Notes under the pieces: model-generated | Databases searched by the model: none | Seen by the model: only the letters and a program-made list of their open reading frames with translations | Told to the model about the DNA's origin: nothing | Shown here: one piece after another, positions 2-48,894 of the stretch | Numbering within the stretch: the first letter of the stretch is position 1 | Layout: every line of letters starts with the position of its first letter | Program-made: the position numbers and the translations under genes | Source of the DNA: Nitrospirota bacterium | GTDB taxonomy: Bacteria > Nitrospirota > JACRHJ01 | Assembly: GCA_021784575.1 (NCBI GenBank) | Contig: JAJYHX010000003.1 | Location: 248,001 to 312,000 of the forward strand | Reading direction: 5' to 3' | DNA length: 64,000 bases

Positions 2-1267
2 TCGGATATTAAGTCCAGCCGGGCGGCAAGGGACATCGCCGCCGCGCACGAGGAAATATTCTTCTCCCCCGGATTCCACCCGCACGACGTAAAGTCCGCG
101 ACCGAAGCCGACTACGGGGAGATGGAAGAACTACTTAAGTACCCCAAGGCCGTCGCGGTGGGCGAGATCGGCCTCGACTACCACTACGACTACTCCCCCA
201 GAGATACGCAGACGGAGCATTTTAAAAGACAGCTTGCGGTTGCGAAAAAGGTAAACAAGCCGGTAATAATCCATTCCCGCGAGGCCGAAACCGAAACCAT
301 GGACATCATCGCATCCGCCGGGCTTCCGGAGGCGGGCGGGACACTCCACTGCTTCTCCGGCGGGCCGGGAATGGCAAGGCGGGCGCTGGAACTCGGCATG
401 TACCTGTCAGTCGGCGGGACGCTCACGTTCAATAACTCCGGCGCGCTCAGGGACGTCATAAAGACGGCGCCAATAGAAAAGCTTCTCCTTGAGACGGACT
501 GCCCGTACCTGGCCCCGAAGCCGCTCAGGGGCAAAAGGAACGAGCCGTCATACCTCAAATACATTGCAGAGGCGCTCGCGCAGCTGAAGGGACTCTCGCC
601 CGAGGACGTTATGCGCATAACCAGCCTCAACGCATCGCTCCTATTCGGAATATGCGAGCCGCCAAAAGACGGCGCAATCGTGTATCCCATACGGGATTCG
701 CTCTACCTGAACATCACGAACCGGTGCACGAACGCCTGCGTGTTCTGCGTAAGGAACTCCACGGACTTCGTAAAAGGCCATAACCTCCGGATTAGAAACG
801 AGCCGACAGCGCGGGAGATAATATCCGCGATGGAACGGGCTGATTTCACGCGCTACAGGGAGGTCGTTTTCTGCGGGTACGGGGAGCCGTTTTTGCGGCT
901 GGATGTTATAAAGGAGGTTGCCAGGGCGGTAAAGGCGCGGGGGGTTAAGGTGCGCATAAACACGAACGGCCACGCCCTGCTCATAAACGGCGACAGGTTC
1001 ATGCCGGAGCTCAAGGGACTAATCGACGCCGTCAGCGTCAGTCTGAACTTCCCGACGGAAGCGGAATACGAAAAATATTGCAGGCCGCAAAGGGAAGGCG
1101 CGTACAAGTCCCTGAAGGAATTTGTGAGGCGCGCGAAGGAATACATCCCCGAGGTGGGCGTTACGGCCCTGGCCATGCCGGGCGTGGATATTGAGGAATG
1201 CCAAAGAATCGCCAAAGACGAGCTTGGCGCAGACCTGAGGGTCAGGAAATACGACGAGGTGGGATAG
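2..1267 (+). CDS. TatD-family hydrolase fused to radical SAM domain (5' partial)
   Basis: The reading frame is open from the left edge, so the true start lies outside the window. The N-terminal part is a TatD metal-dependent nuclease/hydrolase: GFHPHD near 92, GEIGLDYHYD at about 161-190, a metal-binding HSRE at about 272, TLHCFSG at about 344 and LLLETDCPYLAP at about 482-517. After the TatD domain ends (SLNASLLFG) the chain continues without a stop into a radical SAM domain with the cluster motif CTNACVFC (CxxxCxxC, codons at about 725-748) and the GYGEP and INTNGH motifs of the SAM core. This matches the TatD-linked radical SAM family, normally a separate neighbour gene and here one polypeptide. 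TatD enzymes act as DNases or deacylases in the cytoplasm; the radical SAM substrate is unknown. Confidence 0.9.
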   Translation, partial: SDIKSSRAARDIAAAHEEIFFSPGFHPHDVKSATEADYGEMEELLKYPKAVAVGEIGLDYHYDYSPRDTQTEHFKRQLAVAKKVNKPVIIHSREAETETMDIIASAGLPEAGGTLHCFSGGPGMARRALELGMYLSVGGTLTFNNSGALRDVIKTAPIEKLLLETDCPYLAPKPLRGKRNEPSYLKYIAEALAQLKGLSPEDVMRITSLNASLLFGICEPPKDGAIVYPIRDSLYLNITNRCTNACVFCVRNSTDFVKGHNLRIRNEPTAREIISAMERADFTRYREVVFCGYGEPFLRLDVIKEVARAVKARGVKVRINTNGHALLINGDRFMPELKGLIDAVSVSLNFPTEAEYEKYCRPQREGAYKSLKEFVRRAKEYIPEVGVTALAMPGVDIEECQRIAKDELGADLRVRKYDEVG

Positions 1268-1293
1268 TATTATGAGACGAACTTACACTTTTA

Positions 1294-1302
1294 TGATATA
1301 AT
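1294..1302 (+). promoter_or_regulatory. extended -10 promoter of the sensor kinase gene
   Basis: TGATATAAT at 1294-1302 is an extended -10 element (TGn followed by a perfect TATAAT). The -35 position (about 1274) is poor, as is common for extended -10 promoters. It lies 70 bp before the proposed TTG start at 1372. Confidence 0.5.
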
Positions 1303-1320
1303 GACGTAAAATTTGCTTGT

Positions 1321-1341
1321 CATCCCGCGCGCTTCGGGATG
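1321..1341 (+). repeat. short inverted repeat/hairpin in the kinase leader
   Basis: CATCCCG (1321-1327) pairs with CGGGATG (1335-1341) around a 7-nt loop. It resembles a fragment of the common REP-type 'GTCATCCCGC' element and contains the ATG at 1339, which argues against that ATG being the start. Confidence 0.45.
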
Positions 1342-1371
1342 ATGTCTGCGAGGTTTCAGCGGAGATGCGGG

Positions 1372-2784
1372 TTGAAGGACAAGAACTCCATAGATGACTT
1401 GAAGAGAGCCAACAGGGACCTCCTTGCCCTATACGACATCAACCGCCTGCTTCAGACCCAGCTTCCCACCGAAGAAAAGCTTTACATAATCCTTACATCG
1501 CTTACCGCCGACGATGCCTTCGGCTATCTGCGCGCATATCTTCTGCTCGTGAACGACCAGCAGAACACGCTCGAAGGCTGGCTCGGCGTCGGGGCGCTCA
1601 AGGGAGACGAAGCCAGGGAGATATGGGAGTGCGTAACGGCGATCGAGGAGGAGGACACGGATCCCGGGCGCAGGAACATCGCCGAGCTCCTTGAACGCGC
1701 GCCTTTCGACATAAATGTCCGTTCTTTCGTGGTCCCTATATCAAGGGGGCAGGGGCATCCGGTTCAGACGGTCATAAACCGTCGTCCAAAGCTCATAAAG
1801 GACATAAGAAGCGGAAAGGAACCCCTGCACCCGGACTTTTTAAAGCTCCTCTCGTCCAACGAACTGGCCATCATACCCATGCTCTCGAAAAAGCGCGTCA
1901 TGGGCGCGATAGCTGTGGAATCTCCCGACGGGAAGCGCTCCATAGACGAACAACGCTTAAGGACACTGACGATATTCGGGAACCTGGCGGCTATCGCCCT
2001 CGAGAACTCGAAACTTTATCATGACCTGGAGGAAAAGGTTTCGACGCTCGAGAAGGTCAACCGCGACCTCCAGGAGGCCCAGGCGAAGATAATGCAGCTC
2101 GACCGCCTGGCCTCGATGGGCGCGATAGCGGCCGGGGTCGCGCACGAGATAAAGAACCCGCTTAACTCCCTCTTCATAAACCTGCATCTCCTCAAGGACG
2201 AGCTTAAACGTCCGGAGGCCAAGAAGCTGATGGAGGTTGTGGAAAAAGAGACGGAGCGCCTAAGCGATACCGTGATAGAGTTCCTGAACTACTCCAAGCT
2301 TCCCAAACCTTCCTTCGCCCCCGCGTATCCGCACAGGGTGCTCGATTCCGTTCTGGAGATGGTCGAGTTCCAGGGGATAAGCATGGGGGTCAGCATAGCG
2401 AGGGAATATGACCAGAAGCTGACTGAGGTGTTCATAGACGAGAAGAGGATGAAACAGGCCTTTCTGAATATCATAATAAACGCCCTCCAGGCGATGCCGG
2501 AAGGAGGCGCCCTTACCGTGAAGACGGAGATAAGGAACGAAACGGAAAACTCGCGCTGTTTTTATGTGCAGTTCAAAGACACGGGCTATGGCATACCCAG
2601 GGACTGCATGGACAGGCTATTCGACCCGTTCTTTACGACAAAGGAGGAAGGCACCGGCATGGGCCTTCCTATAGTTGACTCCATCCTGCGCTCGCACGGT
2701 GGACGGATAAACATAGAAAGCGCCCCCGGAAAGGGCACTACCGTTACCCTCCGCATTCCACTGGCCGGCGCACCGGCAATCTGA
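1372..2784 (+). CDS. GAF-domain sensor histidine kinase
   Basis: Cytoplasmic two-component sensor kinase of about 470 aa. A GAF-like sensory domain fills roughly residues 15-210, followed by a short coiled coil (about 218-245) and a HisKA domain with the phospho-acceptor His in GVAHEIKNPLNS (near residue 258). The HATPase_c domain shows NIIINALQAMPEGG (N box), DTGYGIP (G1), FDPFFTTKEEGTGMGLP (F and G2 boxes). There are no membrane segments, so the signal is probably intracellular. I prefer the TTG at 1372 because GGAGA at 1361-1365 is 6 nt upstream; the in-frame ATGs at 1339 and 1342 sit in a hairpin with no ribosome site. No response regulator is adjacent, so its partner is unknown. Confidence 0.88.
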   Translation: MKDKNSIDDLKRANRDLLALYDINRLLQTQLPTEEKLYIILTSLTADDAFGYLRAYLLLVNDQQNTLEGWLGVGALKGDEAREIWECVTAIEEEDTDPGRRNIAELLERAPFDINVRSFVVPISRGQGHPVQTVINRRPKLIKDIRSGKEPLHPDFLKLLSSNELAIIPMLSKKRVMGAIAVESPDGKRSIDEQRLRTLTIFGNLAAIALENSKLYHDLEEKVSTLEKVNRDLQEAQAKIMQLDRLASMGAIAAGVAHEIKNPLNSLFINLHLLKDELKRPEAKKLMEVVEKETERLSDTVIEFLNYSKLPKPSFAPAYPHRVLDSVLEMVEFQGISMGVSIAREYDQKLTEVFIDEKRMKQAFLNIIINALQAMPEGGALTVKTEIRNETENSRCFYVQFKDTGYGIPRDCMDRLFDPFFTTKEEGTGMGLPIVDSILRSHGGRINIESAPGKGTTVTLRIPLAGAPAI

Positions 2785-2802
2785 CCTTTTTCAATTCCAC
2801 TC

Positions 2803-2831
2803 TTGACCTGCCGATTTGCTCCTGTTAATAT
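2803..2831 (+). promoter_or_regulatory. sigma-70 promoter of glgC
   Basis: TTGACC at 2803-2808, a 17-bp spacer and TAATAT at 2826-2831. The expected transcript starts near 2838, upstream of the glgC ATG at 2879, so an upstream in-frame start at 2816 is excluded. Confidence 0.7.
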
Positions 2832-2878
2832 TTGTTAATGCGCCCGCATTCATCCACGCCGAAAATCTCAGGAGATCC

Positions 2879-4105
2879 ATGGTGACCTATAACGTCCTGA
2901 CTATGATAATGGCCGGAGGAAAGGGGGAAAGGCTCCATCCCCTTACGCTCCACCGCGCAAAGCCCGCCGTCCCGTTCGGCGGCCAGTACCGCATTATCGA
3001 CTTTACGCTCTCCAACTGCATCAACTCCAAGCTCCGCAAGATAATCGTCCTCACGCAATACAAATCCCACTCGCTTGAGCGGCACATAAACCTCGGCTGG
3101 AACTTCCTGAACCCGGAGATGGACGAGTATATAATGACGCTCCCGCCCCAGCAGAGGATAGACGAGCACTGGTACCGGGGGACTGCGGACGCGATATACC
3201 AGAACATCTATACCATTGAGAAAGAGCGGCCAAGCGAGCTGATTGTCCTCTCCGGAGACCACGTCTACAAGATGGACTACACAAAGATGCTCGCCTACCA
3301 CAGGCGGAAGAAGGCCGAGGCCACGGTAAGCGCGATAGAGGTCAGGAAGGAAGAGGCGTCAGAGTTCGGGATAATAGAAGTGGACAAGGAATACAATATA
3401 GTAGGCTTCGAGGAGAAGCCAAAGTCCAGCCCTAAAATCATACCCGGCAAAAAAGACAAGTGTTTCGCCTCCATGGGAATATACATATTCAATACCGAGA
3501 GCATTGTTCAGATGTTGAGGGAGGACGCGGAGAAGGCCTCGTCCCACGATTTCGGCAAGGACATAATCCCCACGATGTACAAGCGCTGCCGGGTGCTGGC
3601 GTATAACTTCATAGACGAGAACAAGAAGCGCTCCAAATACTGGCGCGACGTCGGGACCATAGACGCATACTGGGAAGCGAACATGGACTTAAGGTCAACC
3701 CTCCCGCTCTTCAATCTCTACGACCAGCGCTGGCCTTTAAGGACTTACGAGAGGCAGTATCCTCCGGCCAAATTCGTGTTCGCGCAGGAATACAAGGGCG
3801 GCAGGCTCGGCCTCGCGCTCGACTCGATAGTTTCCTCCGGCTGCATCATCTCCGGCGGCAGGATTCAGGACTCCGTCCTCTCGCACGCCGTCAGGGTAAA
3901 CAGCTACGCCGATGTGCGGGAGTCCATCATAATGGAGCGCGTGGACATAGGCCGGCAATGCAAGATCAGGAAGGCTATCATAGACAAGGACGTCAAGCTC
4001 CCGGCAGGCACGACCATAGGCTACGACCCGGTAGATGACAGGCGCAGATTCACGGTGTCGCCTGGAGGCGTCGTAGTCGTGGCCAAGGGGCAGAAGATCG
4101 AGTAA
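2879..4105 (+). CDS. glgC: glucose-1-phosphate adenylyltransferase (ADP-glucose pyrophosphorylase)
   Basis: Makes ADP-glucose from glucose-1-phosphate and ATP, the committed step of glycogen synthesis. The 408-aa protein has the nucleotidyltransferase signature AGGKGERLHPLT near residue 11, AKPAVPFGGQYRIIDFTLSN, the sugar-phosphate region FEEKPK and YWRDVGTIDAYWEANMDL, and a C-terminal left-handed beta-helix region of hexapeptide-like repeats. Length is normal for the family. ATG 2879 has AGGAG 4 nt upstream; an earlier in-frame start would lie before the promoter. No other glycogen genes are in the window. Confidence 0.95.
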   Translation: MVTYNVLTMIMAGGKGERLHPLTLHRAKPAVPFGGQYRIIDFTLSNCINSKLRKIIVLTQYKSHSLERHINLGWNFLNPEMDEYIMTLPPQQRIDEHWYRGTADAIYQNIYTIEKERPSELIVLSGDHVYKMDYTKMLAYHRRKKAEATVSAIEVRKEEASEFGIIEVDKEYNIVGFEEKPKSSPKIIPGKKDKCFASMGIYIFNTESIVQMLREDAEKASSHDFGKDIIPTMYKRCRVLAYNFIDENKKRSKYWRDVGTIDAYWEANMDLRSTLPLFNLYDQRWPLRTYERQYPPAKFVFAQEYKGGRLGLALDSIVSSGCIISGGRIQDSVLSHAVRVNSYADVRESIIMERVDIGRQCKIRKAIIDKDVKLPAGTTIGYDPVDDRRRFTVSPGGVVVVAKGQKIE

Positions 4106-4118
4106 CCAGGAGAGCGTT

Positions 4119-4556
4119 ATGCAATATCGAACAGGCAGCATTAACCGCGTTTTTATACTCAAATACGAAGACGGGGACAGTCTCCTCGACGGCATTGTAA
4201 AGGTGGCGCGGGAGGAAAAGGTATCCACGGGTTTCTTCTTCCTCCTGGGCGGTATGCGAGCCGCCTCGATGGTCTGCGGGCCCAAAGAGCCCGTGCTCCC
4301 GCCGGAACCTGTATGGCAGAGTTTTACGGACGGGCGCGAGATAGCCGGAATCGGCTCCGTCTTCCTCAAAGACGGCGAACCGGCCATACACCTGCACGGG
4401 GCTGTAGGGAAGGGAGACGGCGCCCTTGCCGGATGCGTCCGTAAGGACGACAGGGTCTTCCTTGTCGTGGAAGCGATGCTTGTCGAAGTAACGGGCATAA
4501 GGGCCGAGAAGAAAGTCAGCGAGCGGACGGGTATCGCCATGCTTGAATTCGACTGA
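4119..4556 (+). CDS. PPC/DUF296 domain protein
   Basis: A 145-aa single-domain protein of the PPC (plants and prokaryotes conserved, DUF296) family. The pattern fits: a start of the type RVFILKYEDGDSLLDGI, GGMRAASM in the middle, and the conserved PAIHLHGAVG His-rich strand followed by GCVRKDD. Bacterial PPC proteins form trimers with a metal site and are described as possibly DNA-binding, but the biochemical role is unsettled. The gene starts 14 nt after glgC, with AGGAG before the ATG, so it is likely cotranscribed with glgC and the following membrane protein. Confidence 0.85.
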   Translation: MQYRTGSINRVFILKYEDGDSLLDGIVKVAREEKVSTGFFFLLGGMRAASMVCGPKEPVLPPEPVWQSFTDGREIAGIGSVFLKDGEPAIHLHGAVGKGDGALAGCVRKDDRVFLVVEAMLVEVTGIRAEKKVSERTGIAMLEFD

Positions 4557-4567
4557 GGCCTGAAAAC

Positions 4568-6202
4568 ATGAAGAAGAGTTTTCTGGTTCTGTTTGCCCTT
4601 ACATGCCTGTCGTTTCTTATTTACGCAAGGACGCTGAACTATCCCCTGGTCTTCGACGACCATCACGTAATTACGGGAAATACCTTCATCCAAAACCTTG
4701 CGGACGTGCCGCACCTGTTTGTCTCGGCGCACATGGAGTCGAACGAAAAAGCGTCGTCATACCGTCCGTTCCTTTACGCGACCTACGCCCTGAACTACGC
4801 CGTATCCGGGGTTAATCCCTGGTCTTACAGGCTGTTCGACATTTTCTCTCATGCGCTCTGCTCCTTCCTGGTATACCTCATTTCCATGATAATAATAAAG
4901 GAGCGCGGAGACAAAAATACCTGGCCTGCCGCCGCCATGGCGGTCATTTTCTGCGTGCATCCGGCTCAGACGGAATCCGTGATATACGTATCCGCAAGGA
5001 GCGCAGAGCTTGTCTGCACGCTCTTTCTGGCGTCGGTATATTTCTATCTCAAGGCCCGCACAGGACCGGGCAATGTCCTGCGGAAACGCGGTCTTGTTGC
5101 CGTTTCGCTCGTTGCGCTCGCGCTGGCGCTCCTTACAAAGGAGACCGCTGCGGCCCTTCTGCCGTTCTTTTTTGCCCTTGAATATTACTTCCGAAAGAAA
5201 AAGAGCGCCCGTATCTCCCGGGCATTCCCTGTCCTGGCAACCGTGATGACCGTCATATATACGGTCTACCGGTTCTATCTGATTTTCGGAAGCGGCAAGG
5301 GGGCCAAGTCGGATTATTCGGATTATGTTGGCCACTGGGCCGGATGGATAAGCCGCTTTCCAAGCTACATACGGCTTCTCGTCGTCCCGTTCAGCCAGAG
5401 CATAGAACATCCGGAAGCCGGTAAGTTAATAAATATCCACTTGTTCATCGGCATTGCCGTAATTGCCGTTTCGCTGTTTCTTATCTTTAGGCAGTTCAGG
5501 CGCGGGAATTATCTTGTGGCCGCTCTCCTGCTCCTGGCCGCCCTGTCGTTCCTGCCGGAGTTCTGCTATACGATATGGGACCTGGTGGTGGACTACCGCC
5601 TGTACCTGCCGCTTGCGGCGTTCTGTATTGCCGGCGCGGCTGCGCTTGCGCGGCTGTCCGGCCCGCGCGCCGTTATGGCGGCAAAATACGGAGCCGCCGT
5701 GGCGGCGGCTATGTTCCTTGTCCTTTCTTTTTCCAGGGCGGGGGCCTGGGCGTCGGATAAGAGTCTCTGGGGAGACGCGGAGGCAAAATACCCTATGCTT
5801 GCCAGGCCGCATAACGAGCTTGGGATATACTACCTGAAGCATGGCCGGTTCGACAAGGCGCGGATGGAATTTGAGACCGTGCTTTCGCTCAACCCTTCCT
5901 TTGTGAAGGCCTACGACAACCTTGGCGCGGATTATATATGCATGGGGAATTTTTCAAAGGCGCAGGAGGTGCTTTCGAGGGGCCTGGCGCTTGCTAATCT
6001 GTACTCCATGCGGTTCAACCTTGAAACGGCCTACATAAATGAGGGGAATAGCGGGGCGGCCATGCGGAATTTCGCTGCGACGCGGGACCGTTTCCCGGGC
6101 CAAGAAGTATTGCGGGACTTCACGAATACGGCCGTTAGATTGGGCAGGCCGGACCTGGCGCGGGCTTTTGCCGAGGCAGCCGCCGGGCAAAGAAATCCCT
6201 GA
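4568..6202 (+). CDS. Tmtc-like membrane protein with C-terminal TPR repeats
   Basis: A 544-aa polytopic protein: an N-terminal hydrophobic segment, a first extracytoplasmic loop with the FDDHHVI motif, about 9-10 transmembrane helices up to residue 400, then two or three tetratricopeptide repeats (PHNELGIYYLKHGRFDKA and following). This layout matches Tmtc/DUF1736-type and PMT-like GT-C glycosyltransferases, in which the acidic pair of the first loop binds the lipid-linked sugar. Transfer of a sugar to a protein in the periplasm is therefore a plausible but untested role. Its last 68 nt overlap antisense with the 3' end of dusB. Confidence 0.72.
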   Translation: MKKSFLVLFALTCLSFLIYARTLNYPLVFDDHHVITGNTFIQNLADVPHLFVSAHMESNEKASSYRPFLYATYALNYAVSGVNPWSYRLFDIFSHALCSFLVYLISMIIIKERGDKNTWPAAAMAVIFCVHPAQTESVIYVSARSAELVCTLFLASVYFYLKARTGPGNVLRKRGLVAVSLVALALALLTKETAAALLPFFFALEYYFRKKKSARISRAFPVLATVMTVIYTVYRFYLIFGSGKGAKSDYSDYVGHWAGWISRFPSYIRLLVVPFSQSIEHPEAGKLINIHLFIGIAVIAVSLFLIFRQFRRGNYLVAALLLLAALSFLPEFCYTIWDLVVDYRLYLPLAAFCIAGAAALARLSGPRAVMAAKYGAAVAAAMFLVLSFSRAGAWASDKSLWGDAEAKYPMLARPHNELGIYYLKHGRFDKARMEFETVLSLNPSFVKAYDNLGADYICMGNFSKAQEVLSRGLALANLYSMRFNLETAYINEGNSGAAMRNFAATRDRFPGQEVLRDFTNTAVRLGRPDLARAFAEAAAGQRNP

Positions 6203-42782: not shown

Positions 42783-42790
42783 AAAAGCAT
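42783..42790. repeat. target-site duplication, left copy
   Basis: AAAAGCAT directly before the left inverted repeat; identical to 45964-45971 directly after the right one. Eight bp fits IS1-family transposition. Confidence 0.9.
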
Positions 42791-42809
42791 GGTAGTGGGT
42801 CAGTTTGAA
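42791..42809 (+). repeat. left terminal inverted repeat
   Basis: GGTAGTGGGTCAGTTTGAA, exact complement of 45945-45963. Confidence 0.95.
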
Positions 42810-42820
42810 ATTTGCTCCCC

Positions 42821-42853
42821 TTGAAATGCTTGAGCGGTTATGCTATGCTCAAG
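42821..42853 (+). promoter_or_regulatory. promoter and operator-like dyad of the small basic protein gene
   Basis: TTGAAA (42821-42826), 17-bp spacer, TATGCT (42844-42849), about 7 nt before the ATG at 42856, so the message is probably leaderless. A dyad CTTGAGC (42829-42835)/GCTCAAG (42847-42853) covers the promoter. The transposase promoter has the same layout with CTTGA/TCAAG. Confidence 0.6.
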
Positions 42854-42855
42854 AC

Positions 42856-43104
42856 ATGGACAAGCCCAAGAAGAAAAGACCGAGAGACTTAAATCAACTC
42901 GCTAAGGCTATCGTTGACGAGGCCACAGGCGAAGCTCCGCAAGAAGAACCCTCCACAAAGAATCCCGCCGCCGTCGCTTTGGGCCGTTTAGGTGGCCTTA
43001 AGGGCGGCAAGGCCCGCGCTGAGAAGTTATCCGCAAAAAAACGGAAAGATATAGCTAAAAAGGCCGCTCAAGCAAGATGGTCAAATCCCCCCAAGTCAGA
43101 ATAA
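42856..43104 (+). CDS. small basic protein of the transposon
   Basis: An 82-aa Lys/Arg/Ala-rich protein: MDKPKKKRPRDLNQLAKAIV at the start and GRLGGLKGGKARAEKLSAKK with KAAQARW at the end. The GGLKGGKARA-type motif is widespread in short proteins of bacterial mobile regions; a nucleic-acid-binding role is inferred from charge only. The ATG at 42856 lies 7 nt after its -10 box with no ribosome site; the in-frame start at 42805 would be before the promoter and inside the inverted repeat. Confidence 0.75.
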   Translation: MDKPKKKRPRDLNQLAKAIVDEATGEAPQEEPSTKNPAAVALGRLGGLKGGKARAEKLSAKKRKDIAKKAAQARWSNPPKSE

Positions 43105-43207
43105 CCCATATAATCAATAGCTTACGCTTGAATATTTTTTTGAATATTTTTTGTTGATTTTTCTAAAAATCATGCTATCATTTGGAGCATCAAAAGGGAG
43201 GCTTCAA

Positions 43208-43807
43208 ATGAGCATATCAAAGTATCAGGCGAGCGATTTTTTAACTCCGTATCTAAAAGCATTTCAAGCGAGTGCAGACTATGCACAAAAGGAATTTTGG
43301 GGTAAGGGTCTACGAAAATATCGGCCAATAATGCGGGGCCGCACACAGGCAAGCCTCCTATTTGATTTGATGATTCAGGGTTTTTATAATGAGTTTGATG
43401 GAAAAAAAGGTGCATACATCCACGAAAACAAAGGTATCGTTTCCCTTGACTTTGACAGTGGCTTATCGGTTCGGTGCAAGAAAGTAAATAAGAAAAATTT
43501 ACCGAGCTATATCCCGACTACTCAGTCGCTTGCCTACTTTGGCCAACTTGAAATTCCAGGGCTTCCCACATCTGAAAGAATTATTTTCGGATACCGCCTG
43601 AATAAAGCCAAGACAGGATTTGAGATTTTGAACTTTGTCTATTTAAATGGCAAACAAGTAATATGGGAATTGCCACTATCCACCGCCACCAAAGAGAATG
43701 TAGTTGATATACCGGCTAATCAGGAGATGATAGAGCAAGAACTAATAACCACTGATGAGCGGATAGCTGTAGTGGCCGAAATAGACCATGAACAAACAAC
43801 CGAATAA
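43208..43807 (+). CDS. unknown passenger protein paired with XRE-ImmA gene
   Basis: A 199-aa soluble protein with no recognised family. It starts MSISKYQASDFLTPYLKAFQ, has a basic segment (GKGLRKYRPIMRGRTQASLLFD), a beta-rich middle (KGIVSLDFDSGLSVRCKKVNK, IIFGYRLNKAKTGFEILNFV) and an acidic C-terminus (ELITTDERIAVVAEIDHEQTTE). GGGAGG is 6 nt before ATG 43208. It overlaps the next gene by 20 nt, a tight operon, and is clearly more AT-rich than the chromosome. Position and overlap make it the likely partner of the ImmA protein (for example toxin, antitoxin or protease target). Confidence 0.72.
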   Translation: MSISKYQASDFLTPYLKAFQASADYAQKEFWGKGLRKYRPIMRGRTQASLLFDLMIQGFYNEFDGKKGAYIHENKGIVSLDFDSGLSVRCKKVNKKNLPSYIPTTQSLAYFGQLEIPGLPTSERIIFGYRLNKAKTGFEILNFVYLNGKQVIWELPLSTATKENVVDIPANQEMIEQELITTDERIAVVAEIDHEQTTE

Positions 43808-44864
43808 AGATATTATACGATTAGCAAGAGAGTCAAGGGGCTTCACCCAAAAAGACCTTGCAGAGGCTATTCCCACGCCTCAAGGCAATATATCAAAGTG
43901 GGAAAACGGGATGCTCGGATTATCTGAGGACACGCTAAAAAGAATATCTCAGATTCTTAAGTATCCTGAACACTTTTTTTATTTTGACGACCAAATTTAT
44001 GGGCCGGGCATAAGCGGTCTTGGAATTTTTTTTCATAGAAAGAGGCAAAGCGTTTCCAATAAAACGCTTGACGAGATTCATGCTCAAATCAATGTGAGAG
44101 CAATACATCTGAGAAGGCTATTGAAGTCCATACGGCTGAAAAATAATCTATTCAGGTTTTATGACCTGGAAGATTTTAAAGATAAGCCGGAGGATGTGGC
44201 AAAAGCCATCCGTCATCAGTGGGGCCTTCCCAGGGGGCCGGTTGCTAATTTAACGAAGTCAATTGAAAACGCTGGAGGCATTGTAATTGAATTTGATTTT
44301 GGCACGAGGGCGATAGATGCTATCAGCCAATGGATGCCGGATTTGCCGCCGCTTTTCTTTGTAAATAAAAGCTCACCCGGAGATCGGTTAAGGTTTAGCC
44401 TTGCCCATGAGTTACTCCATGTGCTTTGCCATAACCATAAAACATATGACCCAACGAAAGAAGATGAGGCGGATAAATTTGCGGCAGAGTTTCTAATGCC
44501 AAAAGCGGAAATATCTTCTTCTTTGTATGCTCTAAACCTGGCAAAACTTGCGGCCTTGAAAGAGAACTGGAAAACAGCAATGGCTGCTATTTTACATCGT
44601 GCAACCGATTTAGAGAAAATAAAGAAAAGCTATGCTCAGTATCTTTGGATGCAAATGGGTAAATCAGGTTATCGTTTACATGAGCCGATTGAGATACCAA
44701 GAGAAGAACCTTCTTTGTTAAGCAGGATAATAGAGACATACTGTAAAAACTATAATTATTCAATTGAGGAACTTAGCAATCTCTTAGGTCTTTTTGAACA
44801 AGAAACAAAAGACCTTTATTTTCCTCAAAAGAATCGACCTGCTTATTTGTCGGTAGTGAAATAA
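43788..44864 (+). CDS. XRE-HTH / ImmA-IrrE metallopeptidase regulator
   Basis: A 358-aa two-domain protein. Residues about 5-70 are an XRE helix-turn-helix (DIIRLARESRGFTQKDLAEA, TPQGNISKWENG). Residues about 150-260 are an ImmA/IrrE (M78) zinc peptidase with the HExxH motif in FSLAHELLHVLCH and the downstream Glu in EDEADKFAAEFLMP. Such fusions act as stress or prophage regulators that cleave a repressor, or as part of toxin-antitoxin/defence pairs. The 199-aa partner overlaps its 5' end. Base composition matches its partner, not the chromosome. Confidence 0.9.
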   Translation: MNKQPNKDIIRLARESRGFTQKDLAEAIPTPQGNISKWENGMLGLSEDTLKRISQILKYPEHFFYFDDQIYGPGISGLGIFFHRKRQSVSNKTLDEIHAQINVRAIHLRRLLKSIRLKNNLFRFYDLEDFKDKPEDVAKAIRHQWGLPRGPVANLTKSIENAGGIVIEFDFGTRAIDAISQWMPDLPPLFFVNKSSPGDRLRFSLAHELLHVLCHNHKTYDPTKEDEADKFAAEFLMPKAEISSSLYALNLAKLAALKENWKTAMAAILHRATDLEKIKKSYAQYLWMQMGKSGYRLHEPIEIPREEPSLLSRIIETYCKNYNYSIEELSNLLGLFEQETKDLYFPQKNRPAYLSVVK

Positions 44865-44866
44865 AA

Positions 44867-44914
44867 ATAAAGGGTGAATGCGGTAGCGTGGCAGCTTATA
44901 CATTCACCCTTTAT
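44867..44914 (+). terminator. 14-bp stem-loop after the ImmA gene
   Basis: ATAAAGGGTGAATG (44867-44880) pairs with CATTCACCCTTTAT (44901-44914), 20-nt loop; no T-run follows. It ends 5 nt before the tRNA-like gene. Confidence 0.6.
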
Positions 44915-44919
44915 GATTG

Positions 44920-44996
44920 GCCCCCGTAACTCAGTCGGATAGAGTGGACGACTACTAATCGTACTGACGCCAGTTCAAGTCTGGCCGGGGGCTCCA
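44920..44996 (+). tRNA. tRNA-like gene with ACT anticodon, inside the transposon
   Basis: A 77-nt cloverleaf with encoded CCA: acceptor GCCCCCG/CGGGGGC (7 of 7), D stem ACTC/GAGT, anticodon loop CTACTAA (anticodon ACT, codon AGU), five-nt variable loop, T stem GCCAG/CTGGC with loop TTCAAGT. The anticodon stem has a G27-A43 mismatch and the discriminator base is T. Serine tRNAs in bacteria have a long variable arm, which this lacks. The body and loop look like tRNA-Arg(ACG) with G36 changed to T. It could be a decayed tRNA or a working tRNA of odd identity. Confidence 0.75.
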
Positions 44997-45063
44997 ATTT
45001 GTTTTTAAGATAGCATTTTATTTTTTTAAAGTCAAAAAAAATGATTCAATATGACTTTTATGC

Positions 45064-45092
45064 TTGACAGGTCAAGAACAATGTGCTATATT
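45064..45092 (+). promoter_or_regulatory. consensus promoter of the transposase gene
   Basis: TTGACA (45064-45069), 17-bp spacer, TATATT (45087-45092). The ATG at 45100 is 7 nt after the -10 box, so the mRNA is probably leaderless. CTTGA-CAGG-TCAAG (45063-45076) overlaps the -35. Confidence 0.75.
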
Positions 45093-45099
45093 GAAAACC

Positions 45100-45954
45100 A
45101 TGAACAAGTTATCTACAGAAAAGAGGGCACAAGTAATAGGATGCTTAGTGGAAGGCATGAGCATCCGTGCTACTGTGCGCGTTACGGGCGTTGCCAAGAA
45201 TACGATTACAAAGCTCCTGCTTGACCTGAGCCGGGCCTGCTATGACTATCAAGACAAGACCATGCGCGGCCTTAACTGCCATCGGTTTGAATGTGATGAA
45301 ATCTGGTCTTTCTGCTATGCCAAGAGTAAGAACGTCCCGGACGAGTTTAAGGGCATATTCGGATATGGCGATGTTTGGACGTGGACGGCTATATGCTCTG
45401 ATTCAAAGCTCGTTCCGAGTTGGCTTGTGGCAAACCGGACACCAGAGGCCGCTAACGCTTTCATGGAGGATTTAGCCTCACGCCTGAATCATCGGATTCA
45501 GCTTACTACGGACGGCTATAGGGCTTATGCTCAGGCTGTGGAAGGGGCTTTCGGCTGTGATGTCGATTATGCCATGCTGGTTAAAATGTATGGCAATGAC
45601 GGGCCACCGAGTAAGAGTAACCCGGAAAGTAAATATAGTCCAAGTAGCTTCTCCGGCGCAAAGAAGCAGATTATCTCAGGAAGGCCGGACAAGCGGAAGG
45701 TTTCTACCTCAATAGCAGAGCGTAATAACCTGACCATGCGCATGAGCATGAGGCGGTTTACGAGGCTGACCAATGGCTTTTCAAAGAAGATAGAAAACCT
45801 TGAGGCGGCTGTAGCTCTGCATTTCATGTATTACAACTTTGGCAGGATTCACAAGACGCTCAGGGTAACTCCGGCAATGGAGGCGGGAATATCTGACCAC
45901 GTTTGGAGCTTGGAGGAAATAGCGGGCCTGCTTGACGATAAGAATTCAAACTGA
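45100..45954 (+). CDS. IS1-family transposase (single ORF)
   Basis: A 284-aa transposase with an N-terminal helix-turn-helix (KRAQVIGCLVEGMSIRATVRVTGVAKNTITKLLLD) and an IS1-type DDE catalytic domain: FECDEIWSFCYAKSK (first Asp), QLTTDGYRAYAQAV (second Asp) and SIAERNNLTMRMSMRRFTRLTNGFSKK (Glu) followed by FMYYNFGRIHKTLRVTPAMEAG. It is uninterrupted and so needs no frameshift, unlike IS1 itself; this fits the ISMhu11-type branch. Its TGA lies inside the right inverted repeat. Confidence 0.93.
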   Translation: MNKLSTEKRAQVIGCLVEGMSIRATVRVTGVAKNTITKLLLDLSRACYDYQDKTMRGLNCHRFECDEIWSFCYAKSKNVPDEFKGIFGYGDVWTWTAICSDSKLVPSWLVANRTPEAANAFMEDLASRLNHRIQLTTDGYRAYAQAVEGAFGCDVDYAMLVKMYGNDGPPSKSNPESKYSPSSFSGAKKQIISGRPDKRKVSTSIAERNNLTMRMSMRRFTRLTNGFSKKIENLEAAVALHFMYYNFGRIHKTLRVTPAMEAGISDHVWSLEEIAGLLDDKNSN

Positions 45955-45963
45955 CCCACTACC
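45945..45963 (-). repeat. right terminal inverted repeat
   Basis: TTCAAACTGACCCACTACC, exact complement of the left end. Confidence 0.95.
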
Positions 45964-45971
45964 AAAAGCAT
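45964..45971. repeat. target-site duplication, right copy
   Basis: AAAAGCAT, identical to 42783-42790. Confidence 0.9.
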
Positions 45972-45978
45972 GGTATTC

Positions 45979-46008
45979 TTGACATCGAATGCCCTCTGGT
46001 GATATGAT
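45979..46008 (+). promoter_or_regulatory. sigma-70 promoter of ileS
   Basis: TTGACA (45979-45984), 18-bp spacer, TATGAT (46003-46008). The transposon ends 15 bp upstream of the -35 box, so the core promoter is intact but anything further upstream has been displaced by 3.2 kb. Confidence 0.72.
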
Positions 46009-46047
46009 TCCCTATTCCGGCAATACCATAATTATTCAAGGATAATA

Positions 46048-48894
46048 ATGGACTACAAAGACACCCTGAACCTCCCGCGCACGGACTTCCCCATGCGGGC
46101 AAACCTCTCCGCGCGGGAGCTGGATTTCCTCAAGCTCTGGAAGGAGTTAGACCTCTACGGGCTTTTACGCGCGCGCGGCAAAGGCAAGGAGAAGTTCATC
46201 CTGCACGACGGCCCGCCCTACGCCAACGGCCACATCCACATCGGCCACGCGCTGAACAAGATATTAAAGGACATAATCGTGAAGGCCAAGACGATGGAGG
46301 GCTTCGACGCCCCCTATGTCCCGGGCTGGGACTGCCACGGCCTGCCGATAGAGCTTCAGGTGGACAAGGACCTGAAAGGCAAAAAAGACTCCATGCCGCC
46401 GGGCGAGTTCCGGGGGCATTGCCGGGAATACGCAAAGAAGTTCGTGGAGATACAGCGGGACGAATTTATCCGCCTCGGCGTAATCGGGGACTGGCACAAC
46501 CCATACCTCACGATGAACTATCCTTACGAAGCCGCAATCGTCCGGGAGTTCGGGAAGTTCGTCGGCAACGGCGGAGTCTACAAGGGCAAAAAGCCCATAC
46601 ACTGGTGCGCGTCCTGCGTCACGGCCCTTGCCGAGGCGGAGGTGGAATACGCAGACCACGAATCAGATTCGATATATGTGAAATTTAAGTTGGATGGCAC
46701 ATTAGCGTCCTGGGCTAATGAGAGAAATCCCAAAGCAGCCGAAACTCTTAAAGGAATTCAGGACAAAGCAAAAGGCAAATCCGTATATGCCGTCGTCTGG
46801 ACAACCACTCCGTGGACGTTGCCAGCGAATTTGGCACTTAGTGTACATCCTACAAATCGTTATTTATTAGAATATGATAAGGACGCGGATGAATACTTAA
46901 TAATGGCGCTAAGTCATGATGAAGATGGCAAGCCGGGGCATGAGTCCACCTCAGGTATTATCGGCAGAGACTTAGAAGGTCTCAATTTCCGTCATCCCTT
47001 CTTAGATCGTCTCTCCCCTATTTTAGTCGGTGAACACGTGGCTATGGATACGGGCACTGGTATAGTGCATACCGCACCGGGACATGGCCAAGAAGATTAT
47101 GAGATAGGAATGAAATATGGGCTGGACATCTATACTCCTGTGGATGACAAAGGCCGTTTTACGGGCGAAGTGAAATTTTTCGCAGGAATGTTTGTGTTCA
47201 AAGCAAATAAAGCAGTAATCGAAAAATTGGGTGAAGTTAAAGCACTTTTTGGCGCCGAAAAATTAAGACACTCCTACCCGCACTGCTGGCGGTGCAAGAA
47301 CCCGGTTCTGTTCCGCGCGACGGAGCAGTGGTTCATCTCTATGGAGAAGAACGGCCTGCGCAGGAAAGCGCTGGAATACATAAACAAAATTAAATGGGTT
47401 CCGGAATGGGGCATAGACCGCATACGCGGCATGATTGAGAACCGCCCGGACTGGTGCATCTCCCGCCAGAGGTCGTGGGGCGTGCCGATTACGATATTCC
47501 AGTGCGCCGGCTGCGGCGAGCGGCTGATGGACGAAAAGATCGTCGGGCACGTGGCGAATCTCATGGAGAAGGAGGGCGCGGATATCTGGTTTACGAAGGA
47601 CGCAGGCGAACTGCTGCCCGGCGGGACGAAGTGCCCGAAGTGCGGCGGGACGGAGTTCAAAAAGGAATCCGACATACTCGACGTGTGGTTCGACTCCGGC
47701 GTCAGCCAGGCGGCGGTGCTGAAGAAACGTCCTGAGCTTTCCTGGCCCGCGGATTTATACCTCGAAGGGAGCGACCAGCACAGGGGCTGGTTCCAGTCCT
47801 CGCTCCTCGCGTCCGTCGGCACAGTCGGCGAAGCCCCGTTTGCGAGCGTCCTCACCCACGGCTTCACGATGGACGGCGAGGGCAAGAAGATGTCCAAGTC
47901 CAAGGGCAACGTCATCGCGCCGCAGAAGGTAATCGACCAATACGGGGCGGAGATACTTAGGCTGTGGGTGTCGGCGTCCGACTATACGGAGGACGTGCGC
48001 ATCTCCGGCGAGATATTAAAACGCCTCTCCGAGGCGTACCGGCGCATAAGGAACACGGCGCGATACATACTCGGCAATTTATACGACTTCTACCCGGCCA
48101 AAGACGCCGTGCCGTATAAGGATATGGCGGAGCTTGACCGGTGGGCGCTGCACCGCTTCCAGGCGCTGAACAAGAAAATCCGGCAGGCGTACGACGACAG
48201 CCAGTTCCATCTCATATACCACACGCTGCACAACTTCTGCGCCGTGGACATGAGCGCGTTTTACCTGGACATCCTGAAAGACAGGCTCTATACGGAAAAA
48301 CCCGATGGAACCCTTCGCCGTTCGGCGCAGACGGCAATGTACGAGATACTTTCCGGCATGGTGCGGCTGATGGCCCCGGTGCTCTCTTTCACGGCGGAGG
48401 AGGTATGGTCGTTTCTCCCGGCATCGGAAGGAAAAGAAAAGAGCGTGCATCTGGCAAGGTTCCCGGAGATGCATGAGGAATGGATGGATGATGTTCTGTC
48501 CGCAAAGTGGGACGTAATACTCTCGGTCAGGATGGAGACGGCGAAAGCCCTTGAGTCTATTCGTGCAGAAAGAAAAATAGGCCATTCGTTGGATGCGCGG
48601 GTAGACCTTTACGCGGAACCAGTGTTATACGAGTTCCTGGAAAAATACGAATCGGAATTATCTTCAATTTTCATCGTATCGGATGTTGAATTACATCGCG
48701 GACTTGAGAATGCTCCGGCAAACTCGTGCGAATGTAATATCCTAATGCAAGCGATATCCGCAGGTCTTAAAATCTCCGCCTCCCCCGCCGAAGGAGTAAA
48801 GTGCGAGCGGTGCTGGCAGATAAAGAAGGACGTTGGAAGCTCCACCGCCCATCCGACGCTGTGCGGCAGGTGCGCGGGGGTGTTGGGAGGTTAA
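46048..48894 (+). CDS. ileS: isoleucyl-tRNA synthetase
   Basis: Charges tRNA-Ile. 948 aa: HIGH-type motif [14 protein letters not shown] (near residue 54), CP1 editing domain (about 200-405, with [13 protein letters not shown] and [22 protein letters not shown]), KMSKSKGN (near 613), anticodon-binding domain and a C-terminal zinc finger ([16 protein letters not shown]). The DNA coding the editing domain (about 46670-47265) is noticeably more AT-rich with different codon choices (TTA, TTG, GAA, AAA) than the rest, as is a C-terminal patch at about 48540-48775. Both suggest past recombination. Confidence 0.97.

Follow-up and report, generated by a model that had tools for sequence, protein, structure and literature searches.

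The 64,000-nucleotide stretch analyzed here (hereafter the window; contig JAJYHX010000003.1 of assembly GCA_021784575.1, positions 248,001 to 312,000) derives from a member of the Nitrospirota and carries, in the spacer between uspA and ileS, an IS1-type insertion sequence (IS) element of 3,173 bp (window 42791-45963). Besides its transposase, the element encloses a gene for a small basic protein, a two-gene operon resembling the RosmerTA toxin-antitoxin systems, and a tRNA gene whose body and anticodon point to different amino acids. The features of the element and its flanks are as follows, in window coordinates:

42783..42790, no strand: left copy of the 8-bp target duplication, AAAAGCAT, found as a single copy at the empty site of relatives
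42791..42809, plus strand: left terminal inverted repeat, GGTAGTGGGTCAGTTTGAA, 19 bp, with the same ends in relatives
42821..42849, plus strand: promoter-like site of P0001, TTGAAA-17-TATGCT, from a consensus scan only, with the ATG within 7 bases
42856..43104, plus strand: small basic protein P0001, 82 amino acids, with a homologue in 58 of 60 bounded relatives
43154..43181, plus strand: promoter-like site of the cargo operon, TTGATT-16-TATCAT, from a consensus scan only
43208..43807, plus strand: P0002, 199 amino acids, presumed RmrT-type toxin partner, its gene overlapping that of P0003 by 20 bases
43788..44864, plus strand: P0003, 358 amino acids, with XRE-type helix-turn-helix (HTH) and ImmA/IrrE (M78) domains, RmrA-type antitoxin according to PADLOC and Pfam
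44867..44914, plus strand: perfect 14-bp hairpin separating the cargo operon from the tRNA, without a T-run and probably not a terminator
44920..44996, plus strand: tRNA gene, 77 nt, CCA encoded, anticodon ACU on an arginine-type body, according to ARAGORN and Rfam
45064..45092, plus strand: strong transposase promoter, TTGACA-17-TATATT, with an extended -10, matching the consensus at 11 of 12 positions
45100..45954, plus strand: IS1-type DDE transposase P0004, 284 amino acids in a single reading frame, identified by Pfam PF03400 and invariant residues
45945..45963, minus strand: right terminal inverted repeat, exactly complementary to the left end (19/19 bp)
45964..45971, no strand: right copy of the target duplication, AAAAGCAT, likewise a single copy at the empty site of relatives

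The initial annotation described an intact IS1-family element, and this description is confirmed: the 19-bp inverted ends are perfect, the flanking 8-bp duplications are identical, the transposase is unbroken, and the small basic reading frame, the two overlapping genes and the tRNA gene reported as extra DNA all lie inside the element. The empty target sites that it proposed to look for are present in three genomes of the same genus, where the uspA-ileS spacer has no insert and runs unbroken over the junction at about 88% identity, with a single target copy that is exactly AAAAGCAT in G003 and one base off in G001 and G004. These empty sites place the insertion after the split of these species, count against the alternative that no insertion took place, and rule out a chance repeat as the origin of the end sequences, which are tied to the transposase in relatives sharing both the ends and the 8-bp duplications alongside it. 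Insertion occurred 7 bases upstream of a TTGACA resembling the -35 element of the ileS promoter, so that harm to ileS need not have followed; the likely ileS -35 box, TTGACATCGAATGCCCTCTGGTGATATGAT, lies downstream of the insertion (window 45971-46048). As the anatomy of the element suggests, the transposase would cut at the inverted repeats and insert through an 8-bp staggered cut, and it is plausible that the element is still mobile.

The element shares with the IS1 family ends starting with GG, target duplications within the 8-9 bp range and an IS1-type DDE transposase. P0004 passes the Pfam PF03400 cut-off (26.2 bits against 24.1), its relatives carry the PGAP name IS1 family transposase, and an alignment of 164 rows shows little or no variation at its candidate catalytic residues D66, D138 and E207, with the motif ERxNLTxRM invariant. 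The insA/insB -1 frameshift is lacking from the unbroken 284-residue frame, which excludes only the classical IS1 subgroup, and single-frame members of the IS1 family are known. The transposase ATG lies 7 bases past the -10 element, making a leaderless transposase mRNA likely; since this promoter sits downstream of the tRNA, the idea that the tRNA forms the transposase leader was discarded.

Relatives of the element are spread over many bacterial phyla; a scan of bacterial genomes found 559, of which 80 were kept, and among genomes of the same phylum a relative occurs in 48 of 396. Sixty unique elements could be delimited as bounded relatives, with both ends placed and an exact 8-bp duplication. 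Their lengths run from 1,852 to 5,278 bp, with a median of 2.7 kb, and all of them carry cargo, with no bare IS among them, a result that describes the nearest relatives and is not informative on other branches of the IS1 family. In this lineage the carriage of cargo is normal and not unusual. The constant part of the lineage consists of two genes, the P0001 homologue and the transposase, together with the two ends, and the stretch between both genes is a slot whose cargo changes among relatives. As in a transporter IS, the ends enclose genes that vary from one element to another although transposase and ends are shared, and the element is a complete and probably functional cargo-bearing member of this kind. 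IS elements with passenger genes form a known class; in comparison with known IS1-family members, the window element has no insA/insB frameshift, and its lineage has a second constant gene, cargo in every bounded relative found and a tRNA in some.

The small basic protein had been listed with the extra DNA, but its distribution shows that it is not cargo: a P0001 homologue occurs in 58 of the 60 unique bounded relatives, on the transposase strand every time, which makes it a core gene of the lineage. Its relatives bear the annotation histone H1 in Mesorhizobium, and its AlphaFold model is all-helical, with a low predicted template modeling score and without a clear fold. Given its charge and constancy, P0001 is probably a DNA-binding regulator of the element, which would bind the ends, the promoters or their vicinity. 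The KGG...ARAxxLS...ARW start of the small core protein also opens larger cargo proteins in seven loci (L040, L067, L070, L089, L101, L110 and L119).

In the window element the slot holds the P0002/P0003 operon. P0003 matches 14 RmrA models in PADLOC, the best at 8e-59 over residues 10-343, and the Pfam families M78 (7.7e-13) and HTH_3 (2e-11); the spr1629 antitoxin is also among its best matches, and its HExxH motif is invariant in seven homologues. In RosmerTA, RmrA serves as the antitoxin, and the RmrT toxins are diverse (PMC10440598). The initial annotation had seen an ImmA regulator here, and an HTH and ImmA/IrrE protein is indeed present, but it is better read as the antitoxin of a RosmerTA-like pair. 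As in RosmerTA, the RmrA-type antitoxin gene overlaps that of a small partner (PMC10440598), whereas P0002 matches no known RmrT model in PADLOC and the pair is borne on an IS; for lack of that match the pair is named RosmerTA-like. P0002 falls into no family of Pfam, PADLOC or NCBIfam, and no relatives were found in phage records. The pair recurs in six other loci, which gives good support to the P0002/P0003 partnership. Four of these are IS1 elements (L151, L152 and L154 in the same phylum, and L085), in all of which the pair runs opposite to the transposase, in contrast with the shared direction in the window; the existence of both orientations indicates that the slot has been filled more than once. 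The remaining two are a Polaromonas plasmid and L153, a locus in whose sequence no IS1 gene was seen. P0002 may be toxic to the host cell, and by analogy with RosmerTA the operon would act as an addiction module stabilizing the element, possibly with a role in phage defense of the host. A quite unlikely alternative is that the two genes form an ImmA/ImmR-like regulatory pair in control of the element: XRE-HTH and ImmA/IrrE domains do occur in element regulators too (PMC10440598), but the best matches of P0003 are RmrA and the spr1629 antitoxin, the pair also exists apart from this transposase (Polaromonas plasmid, L153), and its absence from most elements with the same transposase implies that it is not required for the control of transposition.

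The tRNA-like gene noted initially is a well-formed tRNA gene, scoring 56.9 bits over its full length against Rfam RF00005 (gathering score 29) and 78.3 bits with a custom covariance model that counts it among its 21 training sequences. It belongs to a recurring pattern, and what is odd about it is that body and anticodon do not match. No pair is broken in the acceptor, D and T stems, and the architecture is ordinary, with a 7/5 acceptor/T arrangement and a short variable loop of 5 nt. The anticodon ACU corresponds to the serine codon AGU. Serine tRNAs of bacteria are class II tRNAs, typically with a long variable arm; in spite of its serine anticodon the window tRNA has no such arm. Its nearest host tRNAs are arginine tRNAs, at about 70% identity, and it possesses A20, C35 and U36. 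These three are the main determinants for arginyl-tRNA synthetase (ArgRS), and together with the nearest host tRNAs they suggest an arginine identity for the body. A role as stand-in for the host tRNA-Ser(GCU), which is missing from this assembly, was considered and rejected: in three same-genus genomes the Ser-UGA, Ser-GCU and Arg-ACG genes are clustered and all three are missing here, so that an assembly gap is the likely reason for the absence. ARAGORN runs with relaxed settings yielded only noise.

The recurrence of such tRNAs was assessed by scanning 136 loci, reduced to 126 distinct ones, with the tRNA covariance model. A tRNA or tRNA-like gene lies directly upstream of the transposase in 16 of the 126, in some cases as a pair and always on the transposase strand. 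By a hand count of covariance-model matches, 20 tRNAs stand beside the transposase where about one would be expected from the density elsewhere. The tRNA-bearing elements are scattered on the transposase tree, forcing at least seven gains or losses, a count that is if anything low, given that the window row and L140 were marked as lacking a tRNA or omitted. Since a long variable arm is confined to serine, leucine, tyrosine and selenocysteine tRNAs, fold class can be compared with the anticodon called by ARAGORN. The two disagree in 9 of 14 element tRNAs, in 1 of 53 other tRNAs in nearby DNA and in none of the 39 in this genome (Fisher p = 4e-7, a guide only, the loci being partly related); L043, with a truncated transposase and an ordinary Arg-CCU tRNA nearby, was entered as a match among the 14. 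The disagreement runs both ways, with serine anticodons on short-arm bodies (L001, L052, L140, L060, L099) and arginine, alanine or threonine anticodons on long-arm bodies (L078, L108, L210, L229). The sole outside mismatch, a short-arm tRNA with a serine GCU anticodon (L116:2676-2751), adjoins an element close to the end of a contig that starts exactly at an IS end; it lies downstream of the transposase, past a terminator-like hairpin, and may itself be element-borne.

A blind search of 396 genomes used a pattern joining an arginine-type D loop to a serine AGY anticodon, with no reference to IS1. It returned three matches (the window element, G042 and G384), each followed within 400 bases by an IS1-type transposase downstream, and a reversed-pattern control gave none; the pattern was derived from element tRNAs, and two of the three matches were known beforehand, the new one being G384, with a transposase 42% identical. 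The same pattern also matched 13 viral contigs, none with a nearby IS1 transposase, and such tRNAs are therefore not exclusive to IS1 elements. The viral tRNAs (L239-L251, e.g. L243:6872-6948) combine an arginine-type body with a serine ACU or GCU anticodon, one sequence being identical in L243, L245 and L246.

The window tRNA can be compared with the allo-tRNAs (Mukai et al. 2017, as reviewed in PMC7609411), which likewise join body and anticodon for different amino acids and include irregular tRNAs in arrays. The allo-tRNAs have 8/4 or 9/3 acceptor/T structures and serine identity, in contrast with the 7/5 architecture, short variable loop and arginine-type identity of the window tRNA, which moreover lies inside a bounded IS1-type element. 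In E. coli, the amino acid inserted by allo-tRNAs with mismatched anticodons is the one that belongs to the body (PMC7609411). Our tentative preference is that the window tRNA works in a similar way: a conserved-fold accessory cargo taken up by the element, it would receive the amino acid that its body specifies and decode with its anticodon, placing arginine at some AGU serine codons in low-level missense decoding. It may be co-transcribed with the cargo operon, which is possible because the intervening hairpin has no terminator T-run. A broader proposition, in which the IS1-type lineage spreads mistranslating tRNAs across phyla, having taken them up separately and using them with a partner protein, often of the coiled-coil/winged-helix type, as an RNA-based addiction, defense or stress module, seems doubtful. 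Proteins of that type are enriched in tRNA-bearing elements (p = 0.003), a weaker signal than the mismatch itself, and the RosmerTA-like cargo of the window element belongs to another class, so that this partnership does not explain the window element.

As the joint best explanation, with a probability of about 0.7, we propose that the locus is a functional cargo-bearing IS1 element with a RosmerTA-like operon and an accessory mismatched tRNA. Several observations weigh against one or another part of this explanation. The element is single-copy in its genome, so that present-day mobility is not demonstrated by further copies, and P0004 reaches only 56.5 bits with the NCBIfam IS1 model NF033558, under its cut-off of 100. 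Besides the missing RmrT match, P0002 finds no relative among solved structures by sequence or by fold (on a model of moderate confidence, 68.5). Most IS1 relatives do without a tRNA, the anticodon-stem mismatch G27-A43 and the base U73 of the window tRNA may each weaken charging by ArgRS, and the more irregular allo-tRNA forms, suspected to be linked to transposons or toxin-antitoxin systems, were inactive in E. coli (PMC7609411).

Other accounts of the tRNA draw on the same observations. The element tRNAs might be decoys or spares that soak up or withstand the attack of tRNA-cleaving toxins or anticodon nucleases, in the manner of some phage tRNAs, the mismatch keeping them out of normal translation. 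The toxin-antitoxin or defense cargo of many elements, the occurrence of mismatched tRNAs of the same type in viral contigs without IS1 transposase, and the wide variation of the anticodon on retained tRNA folds agree with such a role, which is nonetheless unlikely, given that no known tRNA nuclease was recognized among the tRNA-bearing elements and that the tRNAs pair mostly with small coiled-coil/winged-helix proteins and not with toxins (p = 0.003). The tRNA could also be an incidental passenger, a captured duplicate adrift in which the anticodon change is decay. Its absence from most relatives, the existence of degenerate element tRNAs (L096a, L109a, L125), and the distance of the window tRNA, with its one stem mismatch, from every host tRNA (only about 70% identity) are what drift would leave. 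Yet the acceptor, D and T stems are fully paired and CCA is encoded, position and strand are the same in 16 loci where about one would be expected, and a mismatch is present in several separate lineages, the ACU/GCU-on-arginine type recurring across phyla, and this makes mere passage improbable.

A very unlikely reading, finally, treats the tRNA as punctuation, cut by RNase P and RNase Z to part the cargo from the transposase transcript, with the decoding parts irrelevant. The tRNA always stands between the cargo and the transposase gene, in the direction of the latter, which would suit this role, but in the window a strong promoter of the transposase lies beyond the tRNA, which is therefore outside the transposase leader, and most relatives manage without a tRNA. 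Missense decoding by an allo-tRNA-like molecule remains the reading that we prefer for the window tRNA.

Passenger-bearing IS elements, RosmerTA, the toxin-antitoxin cargo of transposons (PMC7157771) and mismatched tRNAs are each already known separately. Like the Tn3-family transposons, the lineage joins a transposon module to interchangeable toxin-antitoxin pairs (PMC7157771); it differs from them in the transposase, in the absence of any resolvase seen, in a much smaller size and in the tRNA. A partial literature search that did not cover ISfinder found no description of the constant small gene, of cargo as the rule of a lineage, or of mismatched tRNAs at one place in bounded IS1-type elements, and no paper on tRNA genes within IS1 elements. 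If the explanation is right, some of the smallest mobile elements routinely carry, in this lineage, interchangeable defense and toxin-antitoxin cargo, and some of them carry tRNAs that might rewrite the meaning of codons. This would provide a concrete home for the mismatched tRNAs found without context in metagenomes, for which a link with transposons or toxins has been suspected (PMC7609411), and compact, bounded units in which to test their function.

Across the relatives, the changing genes, placed between the two constant ones or next to them, comprise RmrA-type antitoxins, HigA/HigB and PD-Lambda-2 type genes, P63C-domain proteins, a type IIG restriction enzyme, GmrSD, STAND-like ATPases, dCTP deaminase and small coiled-coil/winged-helix proteins. 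The P63C domain is present in seven cargo proteins of the set, and the coiled-coil/winged-helix proteins, a diverged family of about 110-190 amino acids, are cargo in 19 of the 126 loci (L060, L066, L096, L108, L109, L141, L210 and others). One of the 76 members of cargo set A5 (L035, with a minus-strand transposase) and one winged-helix search seed were taken from the wrong strand, with no material change in the counts. The genome of the window element also contains a second, diverged IS1-type element (L051; contig 6, 54000-62000, at about 1128-4694 of that locus), 3.57 kb long, with its own ends, an 8-bp duplication GCCTGAAT and a transposase about 52% identical to that of the window; its cargo is a GmrSD-type restriction gene (569 amino acids), and it is without a P0001-like gene.

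Further irregular tRNAs accompany some of these elements. Tandem pairs of irregular tRNA-like genes lie upstream of the transposase in four loci (L056:4697-4861, L096:4671-4852, L108:4715-4884 and L109:4766-4919), several of them with a TTTGCA-like anticodon loop. According to ARAGORN, three genes (L109:4846-4920, L125:4655-4729 and L238:1491-1568) have 8-nt anticodon loops with four-base anticodons, and might be +1 frameshift tRNAs. An ordinary tRNA-Val (L223:1859-1933) is present some 54 bases beyond the left end of an IS1-type element, on its outer side.

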